Assembly (NCBI RefSeq): GCF_040054535.1
Contig: NC_090784.1
Span: forward strand, 16,308,001-16,372,000
Length of the DNA: 64,000 bases
Source: Antennarius striatus
Lineage: Eukaryota; Chordata; Actinopteri; Lophiiformes; Antennariidae
Reading direction: 5' to 3'
In this document: positions 306-64,000 of the stretch, one piece after another
Layout: each line of letters starts with the position of its first letter
Position numbering within the stretch: position 1 is the stretch's first letter
Translations under genes and position numbers: made by a program
The notes under the pieces: model-generated
What the model saw: the letters and a program-made list of their open reading frames with translations, nothing else
Database searches by the model: none
What the model was told of the DNA's origin: nothing

Positions 306-308
306 GAG
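306..308 (+). other. cyth2: Three-nucleotide GAG microexon of the cytohesin PH domain
   Basis: A pyrimidine-rich tract ending TTTTCTCAG is followed by GAG and then by the donor GTATGT. Cytohesin genes are known to carry a 3-nt alternative exon that changes a diglycine to a triglycine in the first PH loop. The next exon starts at 474 with GG GGG CGA, so a preceding codon ending in G would give Gly-Gly-Arg without the microexon and Gly-Gly-Gly-Arg with it. The location, size, sequence and phase all fit. Use of this exon in this species is inferred, not seen. Confidence 0.8.
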
Positions 309-2763
309 GTATGTACTGACAGAGTTTTTGTAGTTATAAAGTTCTATGTAGAAGAATTACTATATAGTTAGCTACTAGAATGTGAAGATCATGTAGTAGT
401 ATCCCCTTTAGTTTTGAACCCAATCTTATTATTTACCTCACACTCTTCAAGAATTGTTTTTTATTTGTTTCAGGGGGGCGAGTTAAAACCTGGAAGCGCC
501 GATGGTTTATCCTCACAGATAACTGCCTTTATTACTTTGAATACACTACAGTAAGTGCTAATTTGACAGTGTCACTCCAATATTTATGTAGCTTAGACTT
601 TAAAACATGGAGTTGCTTAATTTAATTAATACAACGTATGCAACAGGAAATTATTAACTACAAAGTATGCATGAACAAGAATTGTCATACTCGACACAAC
701 TTATTTTTTTTCTCCTTTTTAATTTTTTTTTTTAATTTTTAGAGTGAGAGAGAGAAAGATAGAGAGACAGAGCTTGCGTGTGTGTGTGCGCTATGTAACA
801 GTTAAAATATCTATACAGTATATAAATCATTAATTTGAACTGAAGTTAGAAAGTGTCAAACTAAGAGCAGAGATTCTCCATTACATCCATCTATGTCAGT
901 GGTCCCCAACTACCGGGTCGCGACCTGGTAGCTGGTCGCGGGACATTAGGTACCGGGGGGCACAGAAGGTTTTACTTTTTTTTTTTTTTATTGTTTACCA
1001 GTCTAAAGATGTTTTATTTTGATAAGTGACGTCTGTGCGGAATGATGCACAGACAAATGCATGCGCCTGTCCTCCTTGACAGGTCTCGGTCACGTGACAT
1101 GTTACCCCTAAATTAAGCGCTCACTACTGCGCCGGTGTTCTGGATTAGAGTCAAGGCAGATTATCCTGAGATCGCCCAAATAGTATCGTAAACCCTGCTT
1201 CCAACCACCTGTCTTTGTAAAGCAGGATTTTCTGCGGTGACCGTAAACAAAACCAAACTGCAAAGTAGACTGGACGTCCGAAACACACTTCAGGTGTCAT
1301 TGTCTCTCGTTACCCCTAGGTCAGCGGTCCCCAACCACTAAATCTCATTATTGTAATTATTATTATTTGATTGACTTATTCACTCTTTTATTGGAAATGA
1401 TCAGTATTTCTCCTACGTTGAATTCACTGATTGTAAGTCACTATATTTCAAAATAAACCTCATCATTGCCGTCACTTGAACCGAGTTTTTAATATCATTA
1501 TGTCTTACAATTGTTTTGTTTACAGAGATGTTGATTATCAATCTATAAAAAAAGGTTGTTTATTGTCTGTTGATGTCTGCATTTACACAAAACCACTGCG
1601 GATGATTTATTATTAGACTACAGCTGTCCTGGCATCAATAACGATTATCGAGCAAATGAAGGCCGGTCCGTGATACGTCAAAGAATAATGTGGAGATGTT
1701 TTAATTTGAAAAGTGTTGTATTCTGAAATAAAAAACTTTCTGAAAGTATTTTAATGTTTTATTATGAAAAGACCAGGTATTGTGGTCATGCATTGACTAC
1801 AGTACTTTTGTTGAGAGGGAAAAAACAATTACCCGTACAATTTTGCTCTATTTTTAACAGTCAGAACTATTTCAGAGATGGGATGCATTTCTGTTCATGA
1901 ATTCACACAAAAATTCCGACTAGGATGTAAAGAGCTTGTATTTGTAGAAACCTTTTTGCTCTAATGTTTAAATTCCTTTCCTTCTGACAGGATAAGGAAC
2001 CACGAGGAATCATTCCATTGGAAAACCTTAGTATCCGCGAAGTTGAAGACCCAAGAAAACCTGTAAGTTTGAATTGTCTCTGAAATACATAGGCAAGAGG
2101 TAGTTCTATTTACAGTTTAGTCAGTATGAGGGATACTTTATTCCCCCTTTGGCCCTGATGAGAGGGAACAGTGAGTAGCCCATAAGGCTTCCAGTGACCA
2201 GATCTTCACATCTACATGTACACTGTTTGAGTTTGGGAACCACTGAGTCGATGACTATTTCCCCTCCTGAGCCTCAGCTGCTTTAATATGATTGTTCATC
2301 CAATCTTCTCTGCCTTTCCCCTCAGAACTGCTTTGAGTTATATATCCCCAACAACCGTGGTCAGCTAATCAAGGCATGTAAAACAGAGGCTGATGGGAGA
2401 GTAGTGGAGGGGAACCATATGGTGTACCGTATCTCCGCTCCTACACCCGAAGAGAAGGATGAATGGATCCACAGCATCAAGTATGTACATGGAAAAAAGG
2501 ACGGTAATGTGACAAAAAAATGAAGGTAGTGGTAGACCGATGAAACATTGTGTCCCAACACTGGGTCACTTTGTGTTTAAGGTCCTAATTTAATTTCTAA
2601 CTGCAGTCTGCATGTTAATGTACTTTTTAAAATCGCATGTCTTGACTCAATAGTGTCTATTTGTCACTTGTACAGATCTGCTGTCAGTGTTGACCCCTTC
2701 TACGAAATGCTTGCTGCCAGGAAGAAACGTATATCTCTGAAGAAGAAGGAGGAACAACCATAA
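306..2763 (+). CDS. cyth2: Cytohesin (ARF guanine nucleotide exchange factor), C-terminal PH-domain exons; 5' part lies outside the window
   Basis: Coding pieces, joined in phase: 306-308 (optional), 474-550, 1991-2062, 2326-2480 and 2676-2763 (stop TAA). They encode about 130 residues covering most of the pleckstrin-homology domain and the C-terminal polybasic tail. Readable landmarks are [20 protein letters not shown], then [18 protein letters not shown], then the end [19 protein letters not shown] followed by EEQP. Cytohesins activate ARF GTPases through an upstream Sec7 domain, not present here; the PH domain and basic tail recruit the protein to phosphoinositides at the plasma membrane. 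The tail ([17 protein letters not shown], ending in EQP) and ELYIPNN match cytohesin-2/ARNO better than what I recall of cytohesins 1, 3 and 4. All introns have GT-AG ends. The family is certain; the paralog is likely, and the neighbouring LMTK gene supports it. Confidence 0.9.
897..1690. mobile_element. hAT-like non-autonomous DNA transposon remnant (family A, copy 1)
   Basis: It lies in a cytohesin intron. It opens with CAGTGGTCCCCAAC and a G/C-rich stretch containing several small palindromes; a second GCGGTCCCCAACC occurs near 1323. The block at about 1505-1632 is closely repeated at 54700-54833, which identifies it as interspersed. CAGNGGTCCCCAAC termini are typical of hAT-type elements. 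I see no transposase reading frame. The right boundary is approximate. Confidence 0.55.
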
Positions 2764-5700
2764 ATTATTCCCTCCATTCCCTCCCTGTCTTTGTCCGTCT
2801 TGTGTCTCCTAACACTGGACGTGTTTTCATTCCTGCTTCTTATTACCTTTTCATAGGTTTTGTTCCCCATCTCCTTTTCTTCAAATGCACCCTCATCTGA
2901 CTTCTTGCTATCCTGTTTTCCAGACTCTTTAAAACCACATTCACACCTTCTGTGGCCGCCTCTTCTTTTGGTTTTACACTACTGCTGTTATATACAGTCT
3001 GACAGCACTACAGCCATAGCAAACTGTCTGTCCCATCTTCTCACCACATTCCCCCAAAATGTGTCTTAAACATACACACTCTGATTTTGATACATTTGGT
3101 AGCAAATCAATCCCCATTGTATATGAGTTTTATTGGCAAACATTTTGTACATAAGCTGTTTGCAGGAACCAATAACATTTTAAATAGTTAAATGATTATT
3201 CTATTGATCACTGCAATATTCTATTTATTCAACCTGCTGTATAGAATCCTGTAGAGATGACATTTGCAATTGAGATTGTTTCAACACAGGTCAACTGAAA
3301 GAGTTACTTTAGCAGTAAAGACCTGAAGTTTTTTTCTTTAAAGACCTACACTTACATAATGTCTCATTCTCAAACTCCAAGATGTAAGCCACATCCGACA
3401 GAAAACACAGGAAAGGTTAATTATATAAATAAACTGGCAAAGTTTAGGGTTTGTAGAGCATTGAGGGGAAAAAATCATCCTAAAAAGGGTAGCGATCCCA
3501 AGACTTGTTTTCGGGAGAAATTCTGGATCATTCTAGAGTTAGAGTCACCTGACTTGAATGCAATAGAAAATCTCAGGTGGGATTTTAAAGTGCTGGTTGC
3601 AGCATAGAAACCTATGAATAGAACTGAAGTTTTGCCAATGAGGAATGAGCTAAGATTCCTCAAGGATGCTGCCAAGAGCTGGAGCGTGGATGTGTCATGT
3701 TTCCAGCAGATCAAACAGCAAAGTTTTAGGCTTTTCCAGGAGTAAAACATCTGGAGACTGCAGTAGTCAGTAAAAAAAAGTTTAGGATATATTTGGGGGA
3801 GAAACACGTGAAACATTTGATTTTTTTAGCTATTTGATTTGGTTCTTGCAAACAGCTGATAAATTTTCCCAATAAACCTAATATACCAGCGGTGTTAAAT
3901 AGTTTTGCCAAAAACACCTTTATTTCTGTTTTGGCCTGTCATTCAAAAATACTGGGAAAATGGAGGATTTGAAAATGCTGGGATCATTGTGGTCACAGGC
4001 GTTTGCATCTTAATTTTCCTGAATCTTCCATTATTCTTCCAACTTCCTTCTTCACTCTTGTAAACAACAACAAAAAAACTTTTAAAATGTCAGATCATGT
4101 CTAAGGCTGGCCGAATGTTAATTTGGAACTTATCTATAACCAACTGTTAAACTGATATCTGGAAATGCCGGTGCGGCCAAAGCTCCTCTAAATGGTGTCT
4201 TCTGACATTGTTCATTTGATGAACCTGGTCTTCAGGGTAGCAAGCAGTTTCGGTTCTTAGGAAGTCTTAAATATTTATTGATCCTGCTTAAATATGAAAT
4301 TGCTTTATCCCACACACAACATCTGAACTCATTATTCAGACACATGTCTTCAGTCAGCGTTAATCAGAGTGGTGGGAGGGATCGAATTTGGTCAGAATAG
4401 AATGAGATGTGACCATTGCTTTGTATGGTACCTGTAATTGCTTAAATGCACATGACTACTGTTCACACCGAGATACTTGTTTTGTGAGGAAAATGTTGGT
4501 GTTCTTATTTCATATCACCAAGGTTCAAATATGGCTGGGTCTCATGGCTAAATGACTGCTTTGCTTGCCCTCTGCAAGTCAAGCAGCTTAGAGACAAATA
4601 TAAGCAGTTCTCTCCTTCCAGATTGCTGCTTGCTTCTGCTGACTGAGTCAGTATGTTTTTCAGCATGTTTGAGCAGCAGCAGAGAAATGTCCAGTTCCAG
4701 GCAAGATGCTTGGGGAATCCTTCATAACACTACACTGAGCAACAGTCAAGTTTTGTGGCTTTACTAACGTGCCTGCATGTCACAGATTATGTCCCACCCG
4801 CTGGACACTACAAGATGAACACCAACATCTCTCTCACAAGCTTTTACTGTCAGAAATGTAACTTAGAGCCTCATCTGTCTGCTATAGTTACTTGGAAGAA
4901 ATCACGAAGGCAGCTCATTCCAATGTATACGTTTGTAAATAGATGTTAGCATAGAAGACACATAGAAATGATTTAATTTATTCTTTATTTTTTGTTAAAA
5001 TCTGATTTTTGTACGGGCTACTGTAGGACTGCATGTTGATGAACTGAGGCATCGCTGGTAATGCTAGTGCACTGATGTGAGAAGTTAGTGTTCCCTATTG
5101 GAAAAATCCCATTGAAAAGAGAAGTTGATTTATAGATAGAATGAAAAATCTTATAGTTTCTTGAATTAGAAAGTATTGAAGATATGTTTAGTAGTCTGTT
5201 TTTTCTCTGGACCACCCTGTTGGTATTTGAAGTAAAACAGACTTGTTGAAAGCACAAGAAGTACAGTAATAAGTCTGACTGTTAAACTTCCATCCTTTTA
5301 TTGATTCATTGGCTGCTTAGTATCCACTTGAACCGTGAGAAAGCTTTTCTCTAGCTCAATTGAACCTTTCCATCATAGAACAGTGTCAAAACAAGGAACA
5401 CTGATATATTCATTATATATAGTCAAATATTCAGATTTGTGTCCAGTGATCGACTTGCTTGATATCCAGTTCATAAACCTGTCAGTACTTATTGAATTGG
5501 AGTTTTGAAATGGTAGTAAAAATAGCTGTCTACTGCACTTTATCAATTTTAGCATTTTTGAAGAAAATGCTGTTACTTTGACTGACAATACTCCAATACT
5601 GTGTGGCACTCTTTGCTGGTGATCTACATACACTGCAGTACACTGAAGGATGAACTATGAATTGTGTATAATTACTGTATAACAATCCACTGGTCAGGGC

Positions 5701-6200
5701 AGCTATAGCAGCAATGTTTCTGAACAGTGAACTGTATTTTTCACCGTATAAAGCTGGATGGGGTGTTATACCTGTGGGATCTAAACGTGTAAACTCAGCA
5801 GGGGTATGCCTGTCAAATACACATGTAGGATTGCCTTTAGCTGTATTACTTCATCAACCCAACAAAGGCCTATCTAAGTGCTTGTAGGTGCTTGCGACAT
5901 GGACTGTCCATAGGCCTTCACTTTCTGTGCAAAGTTGCCAAAAACCATTTGGGAAAAGTGTTTCCATTACAATAATAGAATGAATGAATAAAGTGAAATG
6001 ATCAAACTGAATCTGGGCCTCAGTCCCTTTCTGATTCATTTGAACCAATGACCACCTCTTTTACAAAGTGTGCTGATTTTGTATTTATTTATTTACAGTG
6101 AGGTGAAGATGAATTGATCATCTGTAAATGTAGCAAAAGGAAAGTCACAATACACTGGTGCCAGTAACTACTGTATAACAATAAAAGGTGAACGAAGATG
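2764..6200 (+). other. cyth2: Probable long 3' UTR of the cytohesin gene
   Basis: No coding exon is recognisable for 3.4 kb after the stop codon. The first convincing poly(A) signal (AATAAA at 6180-6185) lies at the end of this AT-rich stretch. A long 3' UTR is inferred; an earlier cleavage site cannot be excluded. A decayed transposase fragment lies inside it. Confidence 0.45.
3359..3607 (+). mobile_element. Decayed Tc1/mariner-type transposase fragment
   Basis: The 82-codon reading frame contains SPDLNAIENLRWDFK, a close variant of the SPDLNPIENLW motif around the second catalytic Asp of Tc1-like DDE transposases. Sequence upstream in the frame is not convincing transposase, and I did not find terminal inverted repeats. 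This looks like a short relic within the cytohesin 3' region. Confidence 0.5.
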
Positions 6201-8060: not shown

Positions 8061-8063
8061 AAC

Positions 8064-8102
8064 TTAATTAATTAATTAATTAATTAATTAATTAATTAAT
8101 TA
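8064..8102. repeat. (TTAA)n microsatellite
   Basis: About ten uninterrupted tetranucleotide units upstream of the BTG-family promoter. Confidence 0.9.
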
Positions 8103-8204
8103 TTTATTTAATAAATTATGACAAATTTAGATGCAAAACAAATCAAAAATGTCGTTTACGCGTCACAACGGCAACTTTTTCTTTTTTCTTTGTGACGTAT
8201 TACT

Positions 8205-8346
8205 TGACCAATGAGTGTGCTGCACTGGACCTTAGTAACCAATGGGAATAGTTCGTAGGCGGAACTTGCACTTCAAAGCGCGGCAGCTATAAATGTAATG
8301 ACAGCTATATTGTTGTCATTCACTGCTCATTCGCTCAATGTATAAA
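8205..8346 (+). promoter_or_regulatory. Core promoter and first non-coding exon of the BTG-family gene
   Basis: Two CCAAT boxes (ACCAATGAG near 8208 and ACCAATGGG near 8239) precede a TATA-like CTATAAAT near 8287. About 30-60 bases downstream a short exon ends at AAA|GTAAGT (donor 8347). A matching acceptor, TGCTCTGCAG, ends at 8517, upstream of the coding start at 8643. Order and spacing are those of a compact TATA/CCAAT promoter. The start site itself is not determined. Confidence 0.6.
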
Positions 8347-8642: not shown

Positions 8643-9678
8643 ATGAAAGCAGAAATTGCAGCCGCTGTGTGGTTCCTGAGGAACCTGGTGGAAAGGGCCC
8701 ACCGCAAGCCGGAGCCTCACAAGTTGGATTTGTTTTGTGAGAAGCTGGCGTCTGCCTTGCAGAAAAAGTTTGAAGGGCACTGGTACCCTGAAAATCCCAG
8801 CAAAGGACAGGCATTCAGGTAAAGCTTCTCACTTCAGATGAAATTCAATCTTTTTTGTGGTGACTGTTGGGGCTGAAACTGAATTGTTTTTCAGACGGCG
8901 TCAGGACCCTCGTAAACTAACAGTGCTTTTGATCGCAGGAGCATTCGAGTGAATCAGTTCTCTGGACCCGATCCAGATGTGCTTTGGAGCTGTCAGGAAA
9001 GTGGAATCGAGAGTGGTGAGATGATCATGCCTCCTGAGCTGACGCTGTGGGTGGACCCTGGTGAGGTCTGGTGTAGGTGAGTGAACTAGTCATGAACATC
9101 TGAAATTAAATCTAGTACATGGACCAACAAAAAGACTGACTGCCGTGTTCTCCCTCTGTTCTCATTAGAATCGGAGAAAGAAATTATCATTTCTTGGCAA
9201 CCAGACTCTCTAGCAGCGAGCAAGAGCACAAAGTCACTGCAAAGATGACAAGTTTCAAGGATAAAGTGATGTCACATTCCCACTCTGCCCCTTCCTCTGA
9301 CGTGGAGAGGTGTTATAGTTCTCCTCTCACAGTCTCCAGCACCGACAGGGTAAGGCATCCCGTTGTTTAGGACCCCCATAACTATGTATCCTACTGGTTT
9401 AGGACAGAATTTTAAGTTCTGGAATGGTGGACTAGGATTGTGTCTGAGGCAGTCGATAGCAGGTTATCAATGTGGTTTCTTCTATTTTTAAGTTGCTCAA
9501 TCCAGAAAATCCACCATATGTTCCTCTACGGGTGCCTCCAGGACTAGCCAACATCCCTTCATCCGTCCAGCAAACATCCTTTCATCCCTCCAGACAACAT
9601 CCTTTCATCCCTCCAGTCAACATCCTTTCATCCCGTCATGTACCTGCTAACAGACAATTAACTCATGACCTCAAATAA
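8643..9678 (+). CDS. BTG/Tob-family anti-proliferative protein (BTG3/BTG4/B9.15-like)
   Basis: Four coding exons join in phase: 8643-8818, 8939-9076, 9169-9349 and 9493-9678, giving 226 residues. The start MKAEIAAAV was chosen because BTG proteins begin with M-x-x-EI. The BTG domain (about residues 1-120) shows GHWYPENPSKGQAFR (box A region), SIRVNQFSGPDPDVL, and the box B-like ELTLWVDPGEVWCRIGERN. BTG/Tob proteins bind the CAF1 deadenylase of the CCR4-NOT complex and restrain proliferation; the BTG3/BTG4 branch includes oocyte and maternal members. Domain sequence fits that branch better than BTG1/2, but I cannot fix the ortholog. The C-terminal third is unconserved Pro/Ser/His-rich sequence that contains a 23-base tandem repeat. 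The stop codon lies inside an AATAAA signal. Confidence 0.85.
9550..9641 (+). repeat. 23-base tandem repeat inside coding exon 4 of the BTG-family gene
   Basis: About four units start at 9550, 9573, 9596 and 9619, each beginning AACATCC and containing TTCATCC. The unit length is not divisible by three, so successive copies are translated in different frames (NIPSSVQ, TSFHPSR, HPFIPPV, NILSS). The array therefore makes a non-repetitive Pro/Ser/His-rich peptide from a repetitive DNA. Confidence 0.85.
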
Positions 9679-11393: not shown

Positions 11394-15211
<3,818 letters not shown>

Positions 15212-18012: not shown

Positions 18013-18015
18013 CTC

Positions 18016-20091: not shown

Positions 20092-20273
<182 letters not shown>

Positions 20274-20699: not shown

Positions 20700-20806
<107 letters not shown>

Positions 20807-23410: not shown

Positions 23411-26400
23411 ATGTCTCGTACAGAAGAAGTCAACAAGATGACTGAAAATGTCTACAAGGTACGTCTCTCCTGTCTGAGTGCTTCCTTTGGTAGCCCATAG
23501 GAAACATTTTATTTTTATATTATATTATTTCAATAAAGGATGATTTCTAAAACAGTATGCAGCACATTTGTTTAAAAAAAATCCTTTAATTTGTATTTAT
23601 TGTCAACAGGGGATCCTGGACCAGTTCAATCCCAGTTTGAAGAACTTTGTGACCATGGGAAAACACTATGAGAAAGCTCTAACAGGTTAGGCACAGCCCT
23701 TTGATTGTCCTCTTATCTGGGAGAAGTGGAAATACTGAATCACTGAACGGGTTATTTTTCTGTTCCTTAAAACCTACTCCCCTCAGGAGTAACTGTGGCT
23801 GCCAAGGGCTACTTTGACGCTCTGGTGAAGCTTGGAGAGCTGGCAAGTGACAGCCAAGGATCCAAAGAGCTGGGTGAGTGGGCGGCTGGTGGAGAGGTCC
23901 AACTCTGAGGGGGAAATAGTGGCACCTAATGAAGTGAAGAGAACTAGTGTAGCAGCTGGGAAGACGTTTCACGCTGCATGCGTTGGTGAGGGAGGAGATG
24001 AAGACGAGAAGGAATGAGGAAATGTGGAGGGACCAGAGGGAAGGGGAGAGAGTAGGGTCATTGTTGGGAGATTAACAACACCACATGATCTCATTGTAAT
24101 GCTGAAAACGGCGGGGGAGGCTAGCAGGAGAGTCGGAGGACGGGATGCCAGTCGCCACAAACTGCATTGCTGTGTGACAGAAGGGGGGAACTCACAGCTG
24201 ACCAATGCTCTGAAAATGAAAAATGTTAAACCTGCAGGTTTTAAAGCATTCTGAACAGCTGACATCTGCATAAATCTGGTGATGACAACAGTACTGTGAA
24301 CAGCCATTATTAAAATCTAGATTTTGGACTATGAATAGTTCCTGCACTGTGGCTCATAAATAATAGCTACTACATTTATTATTTTGTCATTTGAATGTTT
24401 CTAAATCATTGATCACCTTCACTGTGCTTCACTGGTCCTCACAGGAGACACACTGTTTCAGATGGCTGAGGTTCACAGACAGATTCAGGTGCAGCTGGAA
24501 GATGTGGTAAGGCTGTGATCAGACCATCAAAATATTGACATTTTCATTTAATCTGAGTGCATTAAGCAGCGCATATATGTAGATAATATCATTATTGTAG
24601 CCACCATCTTCAATAAATCGAAAAATGACTTTTTATGAAGTAACCAGATTGATTTTGCTTATTACATGTTTCTCCAAAATGTTGTTAACTCCACCAGTAA
24701 CAGTTGGAATAGGTCATGTAATTATGTGTTTCTGTGTATATAAAATATTTATGTAGGTGCATCTCATGAGCTAAAGAAGAGTAAGTTACATTTTGGTGTG
24801 GATCAGGATGTTTCAGCAGATTCTGAATCAGTTTTTAACTTTTTATTTACATACTAAAATGTCACTCCTGAATACTTCCATCAACAGCTAAAACTGTTTC
24901 ACTCTGAGCTGCTTGCCCAGTTGGAGCAGAAGCTGGAACTGGATATTAAATACCTCACAGTAAGTGAACAGTTTAACAAAGACATCTCCTTTAGATCATG
25001 TCTGGCAAAAGAAGTTTGCCTAATTTGAAATGATAATTTTTATTTATCTGATTGGAAGGTGAGCTGGTGTGATGCAGTTTATTCACCTTATTTCAATCAT
25101 GAAATTAACAAATTTGTTGAGCAATTGTGTGATTCTGACCATATTTTTTTTTAAGCTTAATTCATTTTTAAGCATAATTTAACCAAACCTTGCTTCATTC
25201 GGCATTCATTGAATAAATCCTCTGACATCCTTGTTGTTCTCTCAGGCCACCTTAAAGAAGTATCAGAGTGAACGGAGGTCTAAATCTGAGTCTATCGAGC
25301 GCTGCCAGTCCCAGCTGAAGAAACTCCGCAGGAAGAGCCAGGGCAGTCGTCACCCCAACAAATATGGAGACAGAGAGATGCAGGTTTGCATTGCCTAATG
25401 TGAAATATACAAATGTGAAATTACAAGTCTGAACGACATCCCGGCTTCTTTTATTTATGCAATGAAAAATCCTCAAAATGCATGTTTACAAGAAACATTC
25501 CTGTACTGCGGAATACAAAGCAGTTATGTGTTTGTGTGAGAAATAGGGCAGTGTTAATAAGATTAAAAAACAATCTGCCTCAGCCGGTATTTCACAAAAC
25601 AAGCACCTTAGTACATAAAGTGCATTAGCCTGAACTGAAGACGTATGAATAAGGAGGTGAAAGAATTAAGTCATGTAAAATGAGGCCAATACATAGAAGA
25701 AAAGGGCATTCACACTTTAGAATTTCTGTTTTTTTTTTATCTTTGTACATCAGACAGGATATGATGTCATATCCAGATGTTTGTTCCATAAAGTGAGCCA
25801 GAGAAATGGGGTATCTGATTTGAATGATCCTGAACTGTTCCACTAATGAATACAAGACAGATTCAGGTAGTCAAACAAGTGTGTTTGCATGCTATCCACC
25901 AGAAGCGCAAAAGATCTGAACATAGATCAAATGAATTGAACGAATGAGTCAGACTAACCAGAATAAGCACCGACTTTTCTATATGTAACACACCTCAGTC
26001 TCTGTATTGTTCTGCTTTCCTTTTAACCTTCATTAAAGGTCACTCTGTCTTGGACTAACAGGTCTGAGTGTGAATGTAGGGCTGGTTCTATTTGGGTTTG
26101 AATTGAATTCTCTGCTCACTTTTTCTTCAGTTTGTGGAGTTGATGAGTCGCCGCCAAGGGGAACTGGATGCTTTGGTTGCCACGGGTTACAAGTCAGCCC
26201 TCACTGAGGAAAGAAGACGGTATTGCTTTTTGGTAGACAGACAGTGTTGTGTCACCAAACTGCTCATCAACTACCACTCCAAGGTGACTTCAGTTTCTGT
26301 TCAGGTTACATTTCAGAGTTTGGATATTGTCCAGTTGTATGAGATGTTTCAGGTAGGGAGATTAATTTGGCATAGATCTCTAGTCATAGATGAACCGAAT

Positions 26401-29400
26401 ACATTTTAGTGGTAAAATGTGATAGTAAGTGTGACCTCATGAAGTATATTTCTGGCCATTAATCAAGAATGTTCAGACAAAAGCCTGTCAAGATATAATA
26501 ATGAAGCAATGATATTTTAGATGTAAAAAATATGCATTACTCAACAGCTTACCTCTGGAATAGGAGGGAAGAAGGGACACTAACCTTGTTTACTAACCAA
26601 TGAAAACTCTAACTTATTAATTTTGTGTTTTTGTGAAATCCCAGGTGAGAGAGCTCCTGTCACAGAAACTGTCATCCTGGCAGCAGTCGTGTTCTCAGCC
26701 CACCAAACTACCAGAGCGCGCTCTGAATCTGCTGCGCCACACTGCGCCTCAAACCTCAGGCGCTGCTGGGATAGCTGAGGTCCTCCGACACACCAAGATT
26801 GGTTCTGCTCAACCAGAACAGGTTCATTATTTTCTATGATTAGTTTTCTTGTCTTTTTAGAACAAATGTTTTCTTCAGAACGATTCAACTGTGCGTTGAT
26901 TGTTGACTTGAAAACCTCACTCAACTGACATGCTTGTTGGTGGTTAGCATTATTTGTTGGTCCTGGAAGAGAAAAAAGTTGTTTAATAAACATGATTAAA
27001 CCTTTGCAGTTATGTTTGAATTAAGTTCCAAAGTCACCAAGTCTTCAAATCCTTGATAAATCCCTGACAACAGTATTTCCTCTTTTTCTTTCAGAGACTG
27101 TCGGTTCAAGAAGTTCCTCCTTTGCTGAACGGAGACTCTAGTCGCTCTCAGCAGCAGCGCTTGCCCCCCCCCTCCCAGAGTGAAGCCTGTCCTTCTCATG
27201 ACTCCCCACAAACTGTCCGTGCTCTTGCCACAGGAGGAGCTGCCGGAGGCTCATCACGAGGAGCATCACCTCATCACACCGGCACCCCTCTTAGTGCCTC
27301 AGCAAGCCCCCTCCCAGACAGCAGCGGTAGCCCCAGCCCTGCTGCATCTACTCCCACCACTTCCACAAACTTTTCCCAACAAAGTGCCCTCCTTCTGACT
27401 ACCAACACATCCAACCTCTCCCCGTGCCTCATCCCCTCAACGGTGATGTCGCTCAGTCAGATCTCCCCGGCTGGCAGCTCGTTACAGGGCATGACCCTCC
27501 CAATCCCCCACAGCGCTCCTCACAGCCCCCCACTGCCTCACAGCGCTCCTCTGTCCAGGGCCATGACTCCTGTGCAGTTGCTGCACCAGAAGGTAGGACC
27601 AGGGGGGAGCAACACTACGACACTGTCACATAACCCCTGGCTGCTCAGGGCCACGGAGATAAATGCAACGGCAACCCTTCCACTGCCCAGGAGACCTGCA
27701 AGTGAAATGCGGCTGGGTGGCTTTCAGGGTAAAATAATGCAGCTATGAGGAAGTAACACTGTTCCACATTGCATCAAACACAAGGTCAGAAATACTCTGA
27801 AAGGTTATTGTGTTGGATTATCTCTTCCCTTCTACTTCCCCCTCTATATAGGCTCCAGTCTCCCCAGGATGCTGCAGCTATCTGAACCCACACGTGTGGA
27901 GGCCATGTTCCCGCATACTCCTGGAGCAGCTGAGGGTGGCGGCGCAGGGGGTGGAGCTTGCTTACTGAACTTTTTACCTGGCGACAACATCACCTTGCTC
28001 ATCTCTGAGCCCAGAGACGGATGGCACTATGGTCAAAATGAAAGAACAGGGCGGTACGTTTTACAGATCACAAATTTATGTAGAATTTGTTGGAATGTAC
28101 CTAAGAAAAAAAAACATATACCGCTAAATAAACTTGAAAGGACCCTGAAAAGAGGCTCAGACATGTCTCAATGTCAGAAGACAGTGCCAAGTGAAGTTGC
28201 TCCTGACTGGTATGTCAAGATTATAGTCGAGAGATAGCACAACACTCAATTATCCTTGAGCTTCTTTTGGCTTTTCCTGTCTGATGTCAGGAGACTTCAC
28301 ACACACCTTGTCGCTTGAAATTGTAAATCCATCACTCCATCACATAAATAAACACTTTCCATTGCAGGAAAGGCTGGTTCCCTTTCACCTACACTCAGCC
28401 ACACCACAGTAAGGGGGATCACCTCGAAAAGTAAGTCAAAGAAAAACAGAAGTCTGTAGTTTATAAGGTTGTTAAGGAACTACATGTCTGGATAATAATA
28501 TTTATAATTTCTCTCTTTAACGGCTTGGTGAATCAGCAGTACTAATAATATTAATCTGAAGCAGAGTTTAAAGATATTTCACCTCTCATCCAGTAGCCTT
28601 CAGTTATACCAGACTGGTGGAAAGCACATACAGTATATTACACATATATATGATTTCGGAACTAATATTTCATTTTGAAAGTTGTGACTGATAATGTGAC
28701 CTTTTGCAGCGCTGTGAATGCCAGGTGCCCAGAAAGTTTTCAGCACCCCATCAGCTGCAGAATAATTCTTGTACACTTTGACCTCATTATTTCCACTGCT
28801 GTTTCCCAAACCATTCAGAGTAGCTGATGAAATTACGTACAATCAAAATCTCCCAGTCCTCATCAGGTTTACTTGGTCTGTTTTCTTATATTGTCTTTCC
28901 TCTGTCTGAACATCTCTTTAGCTCGCTCTTCTTATCTAAGGCGAACAGCACCAGTACAGGCCAGCTGGACAAACTGGGCTCTCCAGGTTTGCCATCCAAA
29001 ACCTCTGAATCTGAGGAGGAGTGGTCCTTTCCTCCTCAGAGGGTCAGCACCTTCCGTCCGCGGCCATACAGCATGGCTGACAGCAACAAGGTCAGAATTC
29101 AGTGGGAGGAGGTCAGGAGGGATAGCGACTGTATTCTCCCAGCTGATCCTCATCATTATTACATAGCAAAAAAAAAAAAATACAGAGGAAATATTTTGCT
29201 AATGTTTGCTCACCTTTGCTGTACAGATCACATCAGAACTAGTCTCTCCACCACCGTCCCCTACCAGGTAATCAGTTTTTATTTGTCAAACTCACTGTTA
29301 TCAAGACTACCAGTGACTGGTTGCTTAATCACTTAATTTTTATTTCTACACAACTAACTTGAATGTCAGTCATTTTTATTTTGTCTCATTTCAGGATCAA

Positions 29401-29467
29401 TCCATTCGCCCATATACGACTCAGAAAAACTGTTACTAATGACCGCTCTGCTCCCATCATTGAGTGA
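23411..29467 (+). CDS. baiap2-like: BAIAP2/IRSp53-family I-BAR and SH3 adaptor
   Basis: Fourteen coding exons join in phase: 23411-23458, 23610-23685, 23787-23873, 24445-24506, 24888-24959, 25246-25383, 26131-26283, 26645-26821, 27095-27728, 27852-28053, 28368-28430, 28922-29090, 29227-29267 and 29395-29467, giving 664 residues. The I-BAR/IMD domain (about 1-250) shows QFNPSLKNFVTMGKHYEKAL, AAKGYFDALVKLGELASDSQ, QMAEVHRQIQ and EERRRYCFLVDRQC. Residues about 272-480 are a long Ser/Pro/Thr-rich linker (exon 9). SH3 follows (FLPGDNITLL, EPRDGWHYGQNERTGRKGWF). The tail NPFAHIRLRKTVTNDRSAPI is a WH2-like end. These proteins bend membranes into protrusions and link Rac/Cdc42 to WAVE and Ena/VASP. 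The I-BAR resembles BAIAP2, whereas the end resembles BAIAP2L1, so I do not force a paralog. The linker is longer than in the relatives I know. Confidence 0.9.
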
Positions 29468-34113: not shown

Positions 34114-36190
34114 ATGATGGAGGATTTCTCCGGTTTGGCTTTGCCTCCTCTGTTTGGAGGACACATCCTGGAAGCAGAACTGGAACCTGGTGGGGTTGAG
34201 CTCGGGCCAGGAGAGGTAACATCAATGATCAGATTCTGGAGTTAATAGTGTTGATATCACTAAACTGAGAACACTGAAAAGTAATGGCCATGTCTGTCTT
34301 CATACTCATTGCACCAGTCATTAATTAATTAATAGCACACACACAGACGGCTCAATACAAGAAAGAAACAAGTTTTTTTTTCCCCAGGTGGAGCTAGGCC
34401 CCGGAAGTAATGAGTTACTAGAGAGCTCGGCACAAGAGGATGAAGAGAAAAGAGCTCTTGTTAAAAGTAAATATCTGGCTCTGAGCAGGAGATGTAAAGA
34501 AATCGAACAGGTATGTACAAAATAGTTTGTGAATGTCTAAATGTGGGTTATTTTGCACACACCTTCTGCAATATGTTTAATTGCTAATTTTTTGCATGAT
34601 TTCTAAAAACTTACGTGTTTTTTAAGAAATTAAATAAATTTCTTATGTACGGTTGCTCATATCAGTTGGACCTGAAGAGATTTCTTTTGCTAAATAGCTT
34701 TTGAATTTTTTTTAAATTTTGATTGAAGTTATTATGTTTCCTGAATATTTTTTTTTGTCAACTTTTGTCCTTCATTGTTGTAATTGACATATAACTATGT
34801 ATACTGGTAATACTACCGAGTGTGATGATGTATCTGTCATTACTTCCTTCATCTTACCCTATAATTAACTCCAAATATATTGTTTATAGGTGAATCAGAA
34901 GATTCTTGGTCGCCTTCATCAAGTACGCAGAATTACAAGGCGCTTAAAAAAAGAAAGACGGTGCAGTAAATCAGTTTTCTTAAAATTTCCTGAGACATTT
35001 CCCACTTGATGGCCCATCTGAACATTATGCTCATCTTACAGGTTTCTCATGAGGACTCTTGATGCTCATGGCGATGACTACAGAAATGCCCACCTCACGA
35101 TACTGCTAGAGGTGAGAATAGGATTGGCAGATGACTATGTTTGATGAGTTTTAAAGGAGAAAATAATTTAAGTATAAGCACAGTGTTTAACGACAGTCCT
35201 GGATCAGTTTTTGTCTTGTCTTTTCTGTTATGGTATTAATAGTGGGGTGGAAGAAATGTTTTCTGCAGCAATATCTACACTGGGATTTTTTAAATGATAT
35301 TCAAATGTTAGCATTGTCTATTTACATGAATGGGCCCAACTGAAAATAGAGCCACAGGTGAAGAAGCGTGTACAGGCAGGATGGAACAGGTGGAGAAAAG
35401 TGTCAGGTGTGATGTGTGATAGAAGAGTTTCAGCTAAAATGAAAGGAAAGGTGTACAAAACTGTGGTGAGACCAGCAATGTTGCTTGGTCTAGAGACAGT
35501 GTCACTGAGGAAAAGACAGGAGACAGAGCTGGAGGTACCAGAGATGAAGATGCTGAGGTTCTCTCTGGGAGTGACCAGGAAGGATAGGATCAGGAATGAG
35601 TACATCAGAGGGACAGCACATGTTAGAGGTTTTGGAGATAAAGTCAGAGAAGACAGACTGAGATGGTTTGGACATGTCCAGAGGAGAGATAGTGAATATA
35701 TTGGTAGAAGGATGCTGAGTTTCGAACTGCCAGGCAGGAGGCCTAGAGGAAGACCAAAGAGGAGGTTTATGGATGTAGTTAAAGAGGACATGAGGGTAGT
35801 TGGTGTGAGAGAAGAGGATGCAGAAGACGGGGTTAGATGGAGGCAACTTATTTGCTGTGGCGACCCCTGAAGGGAAAAGCCGAAAGGAGGAAAAGAAGAA
35901 TACCTGTAATGTATTTTATTGTCCTAATTCTGAAAAAGTTGGGACATTTTTTACAATGTAAAATATGATGGTTGGCTCATTCTGCATAACTGGTATTTGT
36001 ATTAAAAACAGTACAACAACAATAATGTTTTATTATTGTTAATAACACAGGGCCTTTTATTTCAATTAGAAAGTAAGGTTGATTTTAATTTTAAAAAAAA
36101 TTTAATTAACTGTATTAATCCACGAAGGGAAATTGAGACTCTACTCTGCTCACAGGTTAGTTACATGCGTCGATATAGTGTGTACAGGCC

Positions 36191-38755: not shown

Positions 38756-45840
<7,085 letters not shown>

Positions 45841-53157: not shown

Positions 53158-53854
53158 CTGCAAACACAAAGATGACGTCCTTTTAAGTCCATCTCTTGAC
53201 ATACATTCTTGGATAACAGGATCAATACCAGTTTTGCGCTCATGCTGTAAATAGTTAACTTCGCGTTAAAGACTAGAAATCGCAGTACAGTACAATTTTT
53301 CTGGGGTAAAGCAAACAGAATTCTTGTCAAGTCATAGATTTGTTTGGGATAATCACTAGTCTCCATAAAATACCCCTTTGGAACAAAAAGTGTGCATAAC
53401 AGATATGAAGCATGCATATCATATTTTGTTTGTATTTTCTTTCTTTTAGAGTTTTTTTGTGTTGCTTTTGATTTTTGAGTTCATCTCAGGAGTCACCTCC
53501 TTTAGTTGTTAGCTTAACCTATCTAACAATCAAGAATGTTGCACGTTGAAATTATAGTTCTCCATTTTCATCAAACCAAAAGCGTCCCATGCGCTCCAAC
53601 TTTAAAGGAAATGTTTTAATGCATTTCGTTCATCTTAACAAAAGTTTGCCGTCTATAAAGTAAAAAAAATACAAGTGATATTTGAATTGTTAGGATATGT
53701 AAAATAACATTAAAATGATATTCTGAAGTTTTATTGCGAATATTTCATCCAGACGCACTGGCATCGTGTTGCATCTGCATCAAATGAAATGAAGCTTTTG
53801 TAGTTCCTCACTTTGGCCACAAGAGGGAATCAAACGTATTTACCGCCTAGAGCC

Positions 53855-54060
53855 TTCTGGTAGAAAGATGCTGAGTTTTGAACTGCCAGGCAGGAGGCCT
53901 AGAGGAAGACCTAAGAGGAGGTTTATGGATGTAGTGAAAGAGGACATGAAGGTAGTTGGTGTGAGAGAAGAGGATGCAGAAGACAGGGTTAGATGGAGGC
54001 AACTGATTCGCTGTGGCGACCCCTGAAGGGAAAAGCCGAAAGGAGAAGAAGAGGAAGCCT
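53855..54060 (+). mobile_element. 3' end of a non-LTR retrotransposon (family D, copy 2)
   Basis: Nearly identical to 35698-35900: LPGRRPRGRPKRRFMDVV, EEDAEDRVRWRQLIRCGDP, stop, then GGGAAAAGCCGAAAGGAGAA. It is strongly 5'-truncated. Confidence 0.85.
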
Positions 54061-55715: not shown

Positions 55716-56104
55716 ATTTGTGATTACAGTTCATTTCAGTAATATTTTTCCTCATGGACTTCCAATTCCACAGGTTTTCAGTTTTCTGGCCAATTGTCAT
55801 GCCTTTTTGGAGGAATATGTTAATTTTCCAATTGATATTGGGGCTGTTTCTCCTGAGTGTATTGTCTTCAGAAATACACTGCATTATAAAATAAAACAAG
55901 ACCATTTATTGTCATGAAACTGTTTAGTAAGATGTTCACATTTTGAAGTTTTTATTTCCCCTTGTTTATACATTATCTCTTGAAAACCATTCTTTAAACA
56001 ATACAGGTTTAAAACCAACATTTAAATAGACTAAACCAATGAACTAGTTGGATCTCAACTGCATGATGGAATGTTATTAGTAGAAAATGGGCTAACTTAA
56101 TGGA

Positions 56105-57237: not shown

Positions 57238-60200
57238 TCACACCAAGTGGGGGTCGTTGGCAGGGCTGACAGTGAAACGTGATGACGTCACTAGATTGGC
57301 TCCCACAGACCTTGGTTTGATTGATAAATCTTCTTTCCTTTTCGAGTCCTTGCTCTTGATAATTTGCCCTATTAAAAAACAAACAACAAACAAACACTAT
57401 GTGAAGACCCAGTGTTGCATCACTTAGCCTGAGTTGTTTGATTTTATCTCCATTTTATCATCAACTGGAGTTCATAGTAGAACAGAAGCAACTCATGATG
57501 AATAAAAAATATTAACCACAACTTCGCATATGTTATTCTAATAAGAGAATTTACCTTTCACCAGCAGAGATTATATTATAGGACATATTGCTCCTATGGA
57601 GGAACAGTAGAGGCTTCAATATGTCCTATAATCAGTTCATTGTCTTAAACAGTACAACTGACATACTGTATACAGTGTTCTCATTTGCGTGCATCCTTGC
57701 GTCTTTGACACACATTTTTTGACATGTATGTATGATTGTCAAACAGCATGCATTCCTGGGAAGCAAGCTCTACATGCACTTTCAACAAAAATATTCACAA
57801 TTTTTCCATTTCTCCACTTAAATTTTCCAGTGGGAAATCGCCATTATGTTTCGATCTCACGCAAGGAACTTGTGCGAGTTTCTCGTCACGAGACTCACCT
57901 GCGTGATTCTGCCTTATTAAAATTGACAACACAACATTTGCTCGATTTTACTAAGGCTATGGACAATGCGTGCTTTCTTGCATTAAAAACAATCAAAAGT
58001 TAATGAAGAAAAAGAGACAAATATTACTGACAGATATTACTGAAATGTGTGTGGAGAAGGCTCTGTCAGCTTGTTTCAGCGTCCACAGTAGAATTCAGTA
58101 TATGAAATAAAGGCAAAGAAAATTATTGAGTGAAAAGCAAAAGAGAAAAAAAATGCATTACATCTTTCCTTATTTCTACAACTGTTTTTGAAATGATTAC
58201 CAGGCTTGAACATTTTGATAAAGCTATTATATAATTTTACTCTTTTCTTTTTACTTAAACAGTTATGATGTTATGAATAAAAATATTCAAATTAATCTTT
58301 ACTTTTTGTATTGTACAATTGGAAAAACTCTATTCTTGTGTACGCTTCTACCATATATTCTGTTATTACTTTTGGGAAGCATAAACGTCATGATGGGATG
58401 AACAAATTTTTCTCGAAGTGCATCCCAAGGATGTACTACTTTCTTGAGGTACAATGAATTCTGTATCATTTATAATAAGAAATTAACAAAAGAATAAGAA
58501 TTAACGTTATTGATCCCCTGGAAGGGATTTCCCCCCCCCACTCCAGTAGTTAGTTTGTTAGTTATCACCACAAGCATATATCTGTGTACAGGCCCGAAAA
58601 ACGCCAAAACATCCCATCCTTTGGTTTTTTGACAAATCCTACTCTGTAAATGAATATAATCAGACTAGAGCAATACAAGACAGTTCTTGGATATAAATAA
58701 CTCAAAGGCAATACAGTGGGGTTTTTTTCAATGCATTGAAGTTTCAACTCTAAGGCTATGAACAATCAAGGAAGAATCTAATTTTGGAGTTTCTGTATTT
58801 CTGCATACATGCAAAGCCTAAAGGAAATCAAAGTGAAATGTGAAAAAAGTGAAGTGAAGTTAAAGTGAAATGAAGTGAACAAGATGGTGAGAGGAAATCC
58901 AGTCAGTAAGTGAAAATGTGTTGGGAAACACAGCTTAGGCTCACTTCCTTGAGAATAGCATTCATGTCCCCCACTCAGTTCCACAAATCAGTATTGAGGC
59001 AGACAATCATAGGAGATTAACTCTGGCTGCATATGTGGAGAAAAGATGAGTGAACTGATGGTTTTTCATTTCAGTTTGTCAGGATGTGTGCAATCTTGTC
59101 AGATTGTGAACATTACAATCCGGAGTACCCAGAGTGCAATGTACATGTATAGTGTCTGAGTCAACAGCTTGCTAGCAAGTCTGTCATGCTGCACTTGGGC
59201 AAAGCAATGCTGTGTGCCAACTGCTACAGTGGGTATGATAAAACACTAACACTAAAAAACGTTTACATTCCTAGTCTAAAACCTTCAAGAGAGGTATCTT
59301 ATTTAGCATGTTGGCATGCTAACATGAGTTCATATGGAGCAAAAGATACAGCTAAGAAGTCTTCAAGGAGAAATTTAAAGTATGACTTATTGTTGGAATT
59401 TGTATATTCCCAGTTTTTTTAGAATTTAGAATGTCATCATGAGTGTGAAGTGGTCATCATCTTACCACGCAAATCCAACTTGCTGCTTTTGACAGATACT
59501 GGCGCTGGACTAGTGGGTGCTGAATTACTCAGTTCATTGGTTGGAGTTTCCTGTTGTAACGAAACAGAAGAATCAAGCCTCAGTTTTTAATATCCAACAC
59601 AGTCTTGATAAATTTACCAACAAATTATTGAACGTGAAGGAGACACCTGATCAAAGAGATAGATTGTAACATCATCAAAAAAGGACACATTTCGTCCTCT
59701 GTCCCTCTCTCTGTCCATTGGTTCCTTGGGTGATTTCAGTAGACTCCTCAGCCCAATACGCTTGTCCACGTCTGTTTCTGTCACAACAATCACCCTCCTA
59801 GAGCTTTCATCCTCCTGCTCATCGTCTTCATCATCATCAGGATCACTTCCCAAGGACAGCCCTCTCCGTCTACCAATCCGATTTCCAATTGCGCCATTCC
59901 CGAATCCTCCTTTACCCGTGGGGGTGAGTGGAAGGTTCAGAGCAAGAGGAGGGAGGGCGAGAGACAGACGAGCTAGCTTTGCTGCGGAAAAGAAGGTAGA
60001 TATTAAGTTATACTAAAAAGTATGCCAGGCCTCACGTTATAGAGCTGGGATATTCCAATAAACATGGACTAGAAAATATTTTTAAATTACAATCACTTTT
60101 AAAATGAAACATACTATAGCTACAACTATGACTTGCTGGTGTAAATTAAACCAAATGATTCCTTGATTCACAGCAAAATCAACATTAAACCAAATTCTTA

Positions 60201-63200
60201 TTTATTTATTGTCCATCACACATTCCTGTCCTGTTCAACATCCCTATAAAGAACCAGAGAGAACTCTCTGAAAGGACAGCTCTTAACTTCAGTCATAGGA
60301 AAATGGCTTCTTAGCTATAGTCAAAGAAAAATCCAAACATGAATTTGCATTTAATTATAATGATTTAGCAATAGAAATAAGATGGAGGTACCTTTCATTT
60401 CCTGGTTTGCAGCAGGTTGATGGGTTGTAACCTCAGGTTGCTCAATCACAGTGAGTGGCTCAGCTTTAGTTTCATCTGGTTCTATATGGGGTTGAATGTT
60501 GGGGCAACTTTCTTGCTCCTCTTGGCTGTTTGAAAATACAAAATAAAGCAATTCATTAAAGCCATATCGCGGGATGTTGTAGTTTGTGACTGCATATTTC
60601 CTAGTTAAAGCTTCAGATCATCAAATTCTTTTTTAACTTATTCCTTGTGAGAATTACTCACGTAGGTAACTTGATTTCTCGAAAATCTGATACCCATTGC
60701 TGAAATTCCTGCTGGATTGCCCAGTATGATAGGACATATGAAGGACATATATGACAGTTTTCAAAAATTACAGAAAATCAACATCCAACATGTCTTTCTA
60801 GAGAAAATATGAAGTTACTGGAGATAATCCACATACTGTATGAATTGGAGAGTTTTAAGGAGAAGACTTTCTGCAGAAGAAAAGAGAGACTATCTGAAAC
60901 TATGTGGTGTGTTCTGTATATTATCCAGAGTAAGAACAAGAAAAACTTTATTCTTCCCACAATTGGGGAAAATATGGTCAATATCTTCATAAAACAGACC
61001 ATATTATATTTTTTGTTTTTGCAATTTGAGTGAAATGAGCCTTTAACTTAAGTCTGACATCTGACGTTTTAATACCTTTCCTCCACTTTTTGTTGTTTCA
61101 CAGTGATCAGCTCAGTGCTGTTCTCTGCAATTTGTTCCCCCCAGGGCCGAAGCATCACCGTGTCTTTAACAGTCGATCCCCAAAGCACATTTGTTTGCAC
61201 ATTTTCACTGAGGGAGAACTGCAGCCTCTCCTCACAAACCTGAAGCAACAACACAAACAAATAGGAGTGAATAAGCACACAGAGGTAATACAAGGGGAAG
61301 GATTTACACCTTTATAAAAGACCACAATGAATCCCACCTGCATCTTCAGACCATTCTTTGTTGTCATCTTCAGGAGAGATCCCTGGTCCTTCACTTCAGA
61401 TGACTGGTCTGTAGATCTCAGCTCATCGTCTCTCTCCTCTTGAGATGACGGATCCGCAATCACATATGGTACAATCTCTGTCATCTTATCAGAATGATCA
61501 GACTCTCTATCCTCCTTCAAATCCATTTTGATTCCCTCAGAACTGGAAGAGTCATGAGTTTCTTCACTTATATCACAATCAGGTACATTGCCATCTTTTT
61601 GGTTTGTAGTTTTCTTCAAAGACTCCAAAAGGTCAAGGTTCCCCAAAAAAAGGTCACCCAGACTATCCTCCTCATCCCCAGAAATGCAGCACAGCTGTTC
61701 CAGTTTTTCAAAATCCTCCAAGGGTTCCTCATCCAAATCTTTCCACTCAGAAATCAATAATTCTGGGAGATTGTTTAGGGGGGCATGGACAGACGATGGA
61801 GTGGAGGATGTATCCTGACATTGATCATTACCTTCTTCCTGCTCTTCAGGGTTGTCCTCATCAGCCAGTGTTATACACACAGAGGGTAAATCCAGATTGG
61901 CAGAGATACCTATACTCTGAGTTGGAGTTGGTTCTGAGATGTCTATGTTGTGAGTTGGGGAAATATTCAACTCTGTCTCAGTGCCAGCAATAAATTCTTC
62001 GAGATTAATGTGACGATTAAATTCCTCTGCTTCTATAACAGATGGTGGTGGACTTGGAAAAGAGTCATCTAAACTCTCCAGTTTATCATCTTGTACATCA
62101 AGGTCTATGCTTGGTGGGGGACTTGGGAAATCTATTGAGCTGAAACTGTCTACCTGTGGACATGACACATCTCTCTCCTCTTGAATATGAAAGTCACTGG
62201 GACAAATACTGGGATTGGGTGGAAAGGGAATATTCATATAATCCCCCATTGAGTTCAAACTGCTTACTCTCTCCTCCATGTGTTGTGTAGAAGGCCACGG
62301 TCTCATTTCTGCTTCGGAATCTACACCAGATTCAACATTTTGGTGGTCTGAAAAATTCACATTAGGAGCTTCTGTAATACAAATAGACAAATTTGATCCT
62401 GTATGTTCTGAAGTGTGACTGAAGTCATTCTCTATATTATCTTTGACAACATGCTCAAGTGATGTCCATTCCTCTTTTTGAATCTTGTAGAGGTGATTCT
62501 GAGACCATCTATTAAAATTTAGATTTTCTTCAGTCTTTGTAGAGTCTACAGGATTTACTGCTTTTCTGAGTGTCTGTGAACATGAAGAAACCTCATCTTG
62601 CACCAAAGGTTCTTTCCCTGGAATTTCTATATTTTCTATTTCATTGTGTGAGTTTTCTCTTTTCATGTCTTTTTCACAGGTGACAATTTCTCTTAAGTTT
62701 TCAATATTCTCCTCCTGTTGTACAATCACCACTTGGATATTCTTCTCAAAGTCTTGAGAGTCCCATATTTCCTTAATATCAAGATTGCCAGACACTCCTT
62801 GCAATTTATTGCTCCAGGGTTCTTCACAGACCTCCAAGACAGCAGGGTGAGGTTCACTTCCAGCAAGTTCATCATTTTCTTCACTCTTCCAAAACGTCTG
62901 ACCAACAATAAGCCTTTCCCCAATTTCCCAGGTCTTGTTACCAAACCCAGAGAAGAATTCAGACCTTAGTTCGGTGTTCTGGTACTTCTTTTCTGGAGAG
63001 GCCCACTGGTCATTCTCATCAGGCCACAAGCATAAGTCTTTTGACTTTGAAACATAGTGGAAGTCCAGTTCTCCATGAACCTCACCTGAACCTGCACATT
63101 CTACATCCTCCTCCAGGGCAGTACATAACTCTTTTGTTTTCACATCCAGGTCCTCAGAAGATTCTTTATCCATCCTGTTCATTGACTCCATCCATGTTGC

Positions 63201-64000
63201 TTTTCCTCTCAAAGGTGACTTTTCTTTCCTAGCATGACTCAGTTCTGCGGCAGCCAGCTGTTTCTCTGTCTGTGCACTGACCATAGACTCACTGTCATCT
63301 GAGCAGCGTAGGTTTCTCAGGCCAAGCTCATTGTGGTCAAGATCTGATCTCTCTTCACTGTCTGTTTCAGTCAAAGAATGACACATCAGATCACTTACTG
63401 TATTAGAGGTAGACACAGCATCAGTGATTCGCTTGACTACAGGCAGGGTTTCATTGCTCAGTTTGGCATCAGTGGTTTGAATGCTGTACAGTTTTGATAG
63501 ACTTGACTCTCTGTTGTCAACCTGTGTCTGTGACATGTGGAAGTTCAGTGAAGATATATCAATATCGATCTCTGTAGCACTAGTGCCATCATTTGTGCTT
63601 AACCACAGCATGCTATCCTTTGACTGGTTGCCACATGCATTAGCTGCAGTGTTTCTACAATCTGTTATTTGAGATATGATGCCATCTGTTAAGCAGTTGT
63701 CTCTGCTCTGTGGGTGCCCTTTCAGCGGCTCTTGATTTAACTCTAAGACCAACTTATCAATTACGTCAATACAGTCCTTGGCCTGAGGATCATCACATAG
63801 TGGTGTTGAATTATTGCTCTCGTTTGGGAAAATGCCAGAATCGCCTCTTTGTGCTGACCCCAGTCCTGTACTTACGAAATCTTTGCCTAAATGAGAGCTG
63901 TCATTTTCTGGAAAATTCTGATGTAGAGTACTTTCCTCAGACAAATCTTTATCCATTTTTCCTCCACTTTCAACAGCGTTATATGACATCTGTATACTAT
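57238..64000 (-). CDS. lmtk3: Lemur tyrosine kinase family protein, C-terminal region; N-terminal kinase part lies outside the window
   Basis: Minus-strand exons are from the window edge (or 63989) to 61338, then 61239-61076, 60525-60392, 59981-59647, 59550-59466 and 57368-57238. The first exon encodes about 880 residues of Ser/Glu/Asp-rich, probably disordered sequence with two copies of FPSPPPS (nt about 62050-62130). Then come an acidic linker, GSDPDDDEDDEQEDESSRRV, and the family hallmark NVSFFDDVTIYLFDQETPTN, continuing to SSRFTVSPANDPHLV and stop. This conserved segment before the C terminus is shared by AATK/LMTK1, LMTK2 and LMTK3, membrane-anchored kinases acting in endosomal traffic and neurons. 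No kinase motif is visible here. Choice of LMTK3 rests on proximity to cyth2 (both at human 19q13.33). At 63989 TATACAG precedes ATG, so the large exon could begin there. Confidence 0.8.
60566..60592 (-). repeat. Short diverged end of a family B repeat
   Basis: CGGGATGTTGTAGTTTGTGACTG-like sequence parallels the reversed end of copy 3. It is a fragment only. Confidence 0.3.
60662..60711 (-). other. lmtk3: Candidate small cassette exon in the LMTK-family gene
   Basis: On the minus strand CAATCCAG (acceptor) is followed by frame QEFQQWVSDFREIKLP and a strong donor AC|GTGAGT. It ends in the same phase (2) as exon 61239-61076, so it could feed the next exon correctly. Its own start phase (0), however, does not fit the preceding donor at 61075. 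Inclusion would need an alternative upstream donor (for example CAAAAA|GTGGAG at about 61090). Confidence 0.35.

Follow-up and report, generated by a model that had tools for sequence, protein, structure and literature searches.

The literature treats neuronal pentraxins as a three-member family (PMC8866268). Two of them, NP1 and NP2, use the pentraxin domain to bind AMPA-receptor subunits at their N-terminal domain, a contact for which NP2 requires Ca2+, and the second coiled coil self-associates on its own (PMC12799932). At the scale of the genome, Lamb and Hunt (2018) described a related paralogon from the two rounds of early vertebrate genome duplication (2R), in which visinin/recoverin, CACNG and other genes are arranged in four rows, one of them (gar LG26, zebrafish 16/19) holding CACNG8 (PMC6170504). 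Here we analyse a 64 kb stretch of the Antennarius striatus genome (hereafter the window; C9:16308001-16372000, in a searched genome of 548,383,777 bases on 42 contigs), which holds cyth2, a BTG-family gene, a neuronal pentraxin, a BAIAP2-like gene, cnot3, prpf31 and an LMTK gene. It is very probably the fourth 2R copy of a CYTH-NPTX-BAIAP2-LMTK paralogon, orthologous to human 19q13.3-13.4, with the pentraxin and the BAIAP2-like gene as its fourth ohnologs.

In the human genome, CYTH1, NPTX1, BAIAP2 and AATK lie at 17q25, CYTH3, NPTX2, BAIAP2L1 and LMTK2 on chromosome 7, CYTH4, NPTXR and BAIAP2L2 at 22q13, and CYTH2 and LMTK3 at 19q13.33. To our knowledge, 19q13 has no pentraxin or BAIAP2 member, and we know of no extra neuronal pentraxin or extra BAIAP2-like gene anywhere in the human genome. 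CNOT3 and PRPF31, near which human CACNG8 lies, are located at 19q13.42, and the two genes add a tie between that band and the window. A sequence-only reading of this DNA had reported cyth2-like, neuronal pentraxin-like, BAIAP2-like and LMTK genes within 64 kb, all four of which were confirmed; it had further proposed that the pentraxin and the BAIAP2-like gene may be distinct 2R ohnologs and not orthologs of the named human genes. Gene names are assigned here by similarity to human proteins.

The window pentraxin (working name nptx4) is read on the minus strand from 15202 to 11394 in a splice model of five exons (15202-14516, 13858-13396, 13113-12860, 12708-12529 and 11603-11394) encoding 597 amino acids with no internal stops; its frames, like those of the BAIAP2-like model, are open throughout and the introns of both are GT-AG. 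Five coding exons are shared with the NPTX genes; the literature gives NPTX2 five exons (PMC8866268). The C-terminal pentraxin domain is of the NPTX type (Pfam Pentaxin, E 4.9e-33), with PDB matches to NPTX2 (1.1e-96), NPTX1 (3.9e-94) and, more distantly, PTX3 (7.3e-22). It is 62.6, 62.6 and 59.1% identical to the domains of human NPTX1, NPTX2 and NPTXR, values slightly below the 63-68% that these three share among themselves.

A whole-genome Pfam search gave 23 pentraxin matches at about 18 places, eight of which were classed as NPTX-type by their match pattern, the seven outside the window being confirmed by tblastn and splicing; the remaining places were treated as other pentraxins. The eight genes fall into pairs, namely an NPTX1-like pair (C8 at 9.49 Mb, C16 at 9.48 Mb), an NPTX2-like pair (C21 at 7.09 Mb, C16 at 11.38 Mb), an NPTXR-like pair (C8 at 1.05 Mb, C16 at 7.95 Mb), and a fourth consisting of the window gene and a gene on C14 at 0.45 Mb. 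The main tree, to which the values below refer unless stated otherwise, comprised 403 columns and 11 rows (human NPTX1, NPTX2 and NPTXR with the eight fish genes). Each of the NPTX1, NPTX2 and NPTXR clades, one human and two fish genes apiece, was recovered at 100/99, and the window and C14 pentraxins formed a fourth clade at 100/100, joining none of the other three. Forcing this pair into the fish NPTX1, NPTX2 or NPTXR pair cost 28, 37 and 32 log units, and all three placements were rejected by the approximately unbiased (AU) test (p 0.00018, 8.5e-8 and 0.00025), as were all three placements with a single human NPTX. With the pentraxin domain alone, the fish NPTX1 and NPTX2 pairs gave p 0.027 and 0.0004. 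When PDB letters were used for human NPTX1 and NPTX2, the NPTX1 and NPTX2 clades still excluded the window pair (96/96 and 93/95), with p 0.003 for the NPTX2 placement. The proposal of a distinct pentraxin ohnolog thus held, and a fourth 2R ohnolog is well supported. Apart from this, the nptxr copy on C16 (L015, 7.95 Mb) has a branch of 0.83 against 0.13 for its partner, and C9 carries two more pentraxin loci, at 14.22 Mb (L008) and 15.26 Mb (L002), one with an in-frame stop inside the match.

The surroundings of these genes form syntenic rows, among which the window takes the place of a fourth, the human locations being those given above. A baiap2-aatk row occurs on C21 at 11.1 Mb and on C16 at 14.0 Mb. 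An lmtk2-baiap2l1-nptx2 row lies on C16 at 11.3 Mb, with an LMTK-type kinase match (named lmtk2 from one exon, 51% identical to AATK, and from its position) and baiap2l1 between this match and nptx2; C21 at 7.1 Mb has baiap2l1 and nptx2 with no kinase match. An nptxr-baiap2l2 row lies on C8 at 1.05-1.09 Mb, with a cyth4-type match at 1.32 Mb (named from 56% identity to the window cyth2 and from position), and again on C16 at 7.93-7.95 Mb; in both places baiap2l2 is named solely from matches to the SH3 and the tail (SH3 stretch 55 and 48%). Further cytohesin loci, unnamed by any tree, are on C16 at 12.17 and 13.68 Mb and on C21 at 15.06 Mb, with a second low-identity one on C16 at 1.83 Mb. Among the matches listed, whose genome counts are lower bounds, CNOT3 pieces match only C9, in the window, and C14 at 0.62 Mb, 0.17 Mb from the C14 pentraxin; given also that pentraxin partner, C9 and C14 therefore look like a block duplicated in the teleost-specific round (3R). 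The genome has 11 I-BAR loci, nine found by an I-BAR match and two added through SH3, and four were excluded as MTSS-type, judged by match shape alone. Five of the remaining seven have an NPTX gene no more than about 45 kb away, where chance would give about 0.01 (7 x 8 x 90 kb / 548 Mb), and this proximity exceeds chance. The case for a fourth row with a fourth pentraxin is strong.

The BAIAP2-like gene (23411-29467, plus strand) has a 13-exon model, its last splice chosen among several options, with the IMD and SH3 of the BAIAP2/IRSp53 family (Pfam E 7e-80 and 6.7e-8) and a weak WH2 under the cut-off. Its IMD is 65.7, 45.1 and 32.3% identical to human BAIAP2, BAIAP2L1 and BAIAP2L2. In the full-length tree it stood outside human and fish BAIAP2 at 79/83 (79/84 once human L2 was included), on a long branch (0.9-0.99), and four tests joining it to one fish BAIAP2 copy gave p 0.016-0.074, rejecting that placement or bordering on rejection. 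Trees of the IMD alone and of IMD plus SH3 could not place the gene (bootstrap 34-55%). Support from the tree is moderate and by itself insufficient, and therefore it is synteny that carries the case: the gene is probably a fourth 2R ohnolog because it stands beside the fourth pentraxin while two BAIAP2 genes already stand beside aatk. The part of the proposal that held for this gene is that it does not sit firmly inside the BAIAP2, L1 or L2 clades, and a clade of its own, distinct from the other three and predating the human-fish split, was obtained for the pentraxin only.

Several observations weigh against the interpretation of the window as a fourth 2R row carrying two fourth ohnologs. For the pentraxin, the domain alone did not reject placement with fish nptxr (p 0.10) or human NPTXR (p 0.078), and with PDB letters the fish nptx1 placement gave p 0.052. 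NPTX1 is only tentatively the sister clade, at 82/81 with alternatives at p 0.15-0.17, and at 57/31 when the C14 gene was omitted (domain only). The outgroup-rooted tree was poorly resolved: a single branch out of 11 was starred, and an open fork contained both the window gene and its C14 partner. With three other pentraxins (L001, L005 and L007) as outgroups, branches came to 3-7 changes per column and the root was uninformative. As regards synteny, the nptx1 loci (C8 at 9.49 Mb, C16 at 9.48 Mb) do not adjoin the baiap2-aatk loci (C21 at 11.1 Mb, C16 at 14.0 Mb), and the genome search gave no I-BAR match on C14. Placement of the BAIAP2-like gene varied from 34/41 to 79/84 across trees; the tests did not reject its union with the fish BAIAP2 pair (p 0.06-0.22; 0.06-0.07 in the full-length tree), with human BAIAP2 on its own (p 0.09-0.10) or, in the IMD tree, with the L1 clade or with human L2 (p 0.09-0.10). 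Finally, the 2R timing is drawn from the human-fish split and synteny, the comparison covering human sequences and this one fish genome.

How far do these points favour other explanations? The one that survives best, although we consider it improbable, accepts a true fourth-ohnolog pentraxin and takes the BAIAP2-like gene to be a BAIAP2 copy that moved in separately. The moderate tree placement, the long branch and the lack of an I-BAR match on C14 speak for it; set against these, the gene lies 8.2 kb from the pentraxin on its LMTK side, an order matching that of baiap2l1 on C16, tests of its union with one fish BAIAP2 copy end in rejection or close to it, and a motif that we take to be CRIB-like, present in both fish BAIAP2 genes, was not seen in the gene model or in three frames of 26740-27100. 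That both genes are fast-evolving, teleost-specific copies of nptx1 and baiap2 (3R or later), moved jointly into the cyth2-cnot3 block, is highly improbable: NPTX1 is the nearest clade to the pentraxin, BAIAP2 is nearest to its neighbour by IMD identity and the AU test against the fish BAIAP2 pair is non-significant, yet all three fish-pair placements of the pentraxin are rejected, two copies each of nptx1 and baiap2 are already present in the genome, and the C14 partner dates the pentraxin before the C9/C14 duplication. Least probable of all is a hidden paralog from a duplication older than 2R, for which an NPTX tree of vertebrate sequences, uninformative at its root, leaves room, but two other rows pair one NPTX with a BAIAP2-family gene, the window row has exactly one of each, and the fourth-clade stem (0.57), though longer, is of the same order as the others (0.24-0.28). 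A fourth 2R row with two fourth ohnologs thus remains the preferred interpretation; the two genes appear to have been lost in mammals, and the evidence is consistent with both human loss and 2R timing.

The fourth pentraxin clade is further set apart by a His/Asp-rich segment of 83 codons (13493-13741, minus strand), delimited by composition and alignment in exon 2, which falls where other NPTX proteins have their second coiled coil. The densest 80 residues contain 22 His and 31 Asp in the window gene and 37 His and 30 Asp in its C14 partner. Before the pentraxin domain, the two proteins have 47 His and 47 Asp, and 91 His and 56 Asp, respectively, whereas the other eight NPTX rows do not exceed 11 His and 23 Asp; the insert was thus confined to these two of the 10 rows compared (the C16 nptx2 copy being left out and the C21 copy counted over the whole protein). 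Exon 1 of the window gene has a second His-rich stretch, and in both fourth-clade proteins the pentraxin domain carries one additional residue and the C-terminus is FDPCH. The GQEQD stretch is kept in the window gene; by eye, the three N-terminal cysteines and first helix look conserved, the second coiled coil is broken by the His/Asp-rich segment, and the N-terminus is signal-like. Between the two pentraxin domains dN is 0.24 and dS 1.47 (202 codon pairs), a sign that they are probably under purifying selection. In the C14 gene (L010), long runs of HHDD units within the segment suggest repeat expansion. Intron 4 of the window gene contains about 124 copies of ATCT (11966-12463), and further simple arrays lie at 20092-20273 and 20700-20802.

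These features invite a mechanistic proposal. Since the domain and GQEQD are kept and the three cysteines seem conserved, we infer that the window pentraxin is a secreted clustering protein, maintained by purifying selection in two copies (C9 and C14) after 3R; the signal-like N-terminus and the cysteines would fit secretion, and the calcium-binding pentraxin domain would cluster AMPA receptors. His/Asp-rich stretches commonly bind metal, and it is therefore proposed that the segment may bind Ca2+ or Zn2+ and so tune oligomerisation. The BAIAP2-like protein would act as an I-BAR/SH3 actin scaffold that bends membrane and binds actin regulators, its CRIB-like Cdc42 input having presumably been lost or never present. 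A tentative extension is that a pentraxin lineage lost from mammals, with a metal-binding His/Asp arm in place of the second coiled coil, serves as a zinc- or calcium-gated synaptic organiser in non-mammalian vertebrates only. We dropped the idea that the lost pentraxin gave rise to human HRC, a His-rich protein encoded at 19q13.33, as no common domain is known.

The neighbouring genes complete the picture of the window. The 3' end of cyth2 (306-2763, plus strand) comprises PH and tail exons at 474-550, 1991-2062, 2326-2480 and 2676-2763 (stop), supported by tblastn, after an exon-like stretch of three bases (306-308) read from the sequence. It is identical to human CYTH2 at 121 of 129 residues, compared with 107/125, 105/124 and 85/124 for CYTH1, CYTH3 and CYTH4, and it matches PDB cytohesins, including a 26-residue ARNO (CYTH2) tail; on these residues, the gene is identified as CYTH2. 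Between cyth2 and the pentraxin, a splice model at 8643-9615 (plus strand) gives a BTG-family protein (Pfam BTG, 2.8e-33) identical to human BTG3 at 100 of 239 residues. We know of no BTG member in the human counterpart block, and this gene is possibly another loss from 19q13. Open reading frames (ORFs) place cnot3 at 38891-45437 (plus strand), with N-terminal exons at 38891-40264 (Pfam Not3, 3.7e-47) and what we take to be C-terminal exons reaching an approximate end at about 45.4 kb. They likewise place prpf31, with a Nop domain, at approximately 51424-48994 (minus strand), where a 51-residue piece matches PDB hPrp31 (E 3.5e-24). The C-terminal exons of the LMTK gene are at 61335-63998, 59629-59985 and 59464-59559 (minus strand), and its kinase exons lie 3.6-5 kb outside the window (C9:16375596-16376990). 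Against AATK they show 59% and 47% identity, compared with 63-70% and 68-69% for the same exons at the two aatk loci; by exclusion and position, the gene is probably LMTK3. The LMTK tail had no match in the whole genome other than itself, and one open frame of 2143 codons crosses the window edge into a kinase exon. Two ORF fragments (35298-35870 and 53793-54026) are alike and resemble, by eye, remnants of long interspersed nuclear elements, the first having no Pfam match; three weak matches came from a scan of viral contigs and were not used.

In the literature titles and abstract openings surveyed, a fourth neuronal pentraxin is not mentioned. For zebrafish nptx1l, expression is reported in the cranial ganglia, the spinal cord and the pharyngeal arches (PMC4690400). 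Entries of the fourth clade may stand in databases under nptx1-like names; if so, such fish names can conceal an ohnolog missing in humans. A fourth clade with a common His/Asp-rich segment would also alter the comparison of synapse genes between fish and mammals, complete the four-way 2R set, and offer a natural test of the roles of the second coiled coil and of metal binding in pentraxin clustering.

Compared with the paralogon of Lamb and Hunt, whose main text does not mention NPTX, BAIAP2, CYTH or LMTK, the window shares the four-row 2R arrangement (PMC6170504). The BAIAP2-like gene resembles BAIAP2 (IRSp53) in its IMD, its SH3 and an NPFAH...TVTNDRSAP C-terminus, whereas the IPGA-LPVPPEL CRIB-like motif was not seen in it and it has an 8-residue SH3 insertion and a long Ser/Pro-rich linker exon. 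The window pentraxin, in turn, shares with NPTX1, NPTX2 and NPTXR the five coding exons, a domain 59-63% identical, GQEQD and N-terminal cysteines that look conserved, but differs from all three in its separate clade, its His/Asp-rich segment and exon 1 His-rich stretch, its additional domain residue and its short C-terminus.

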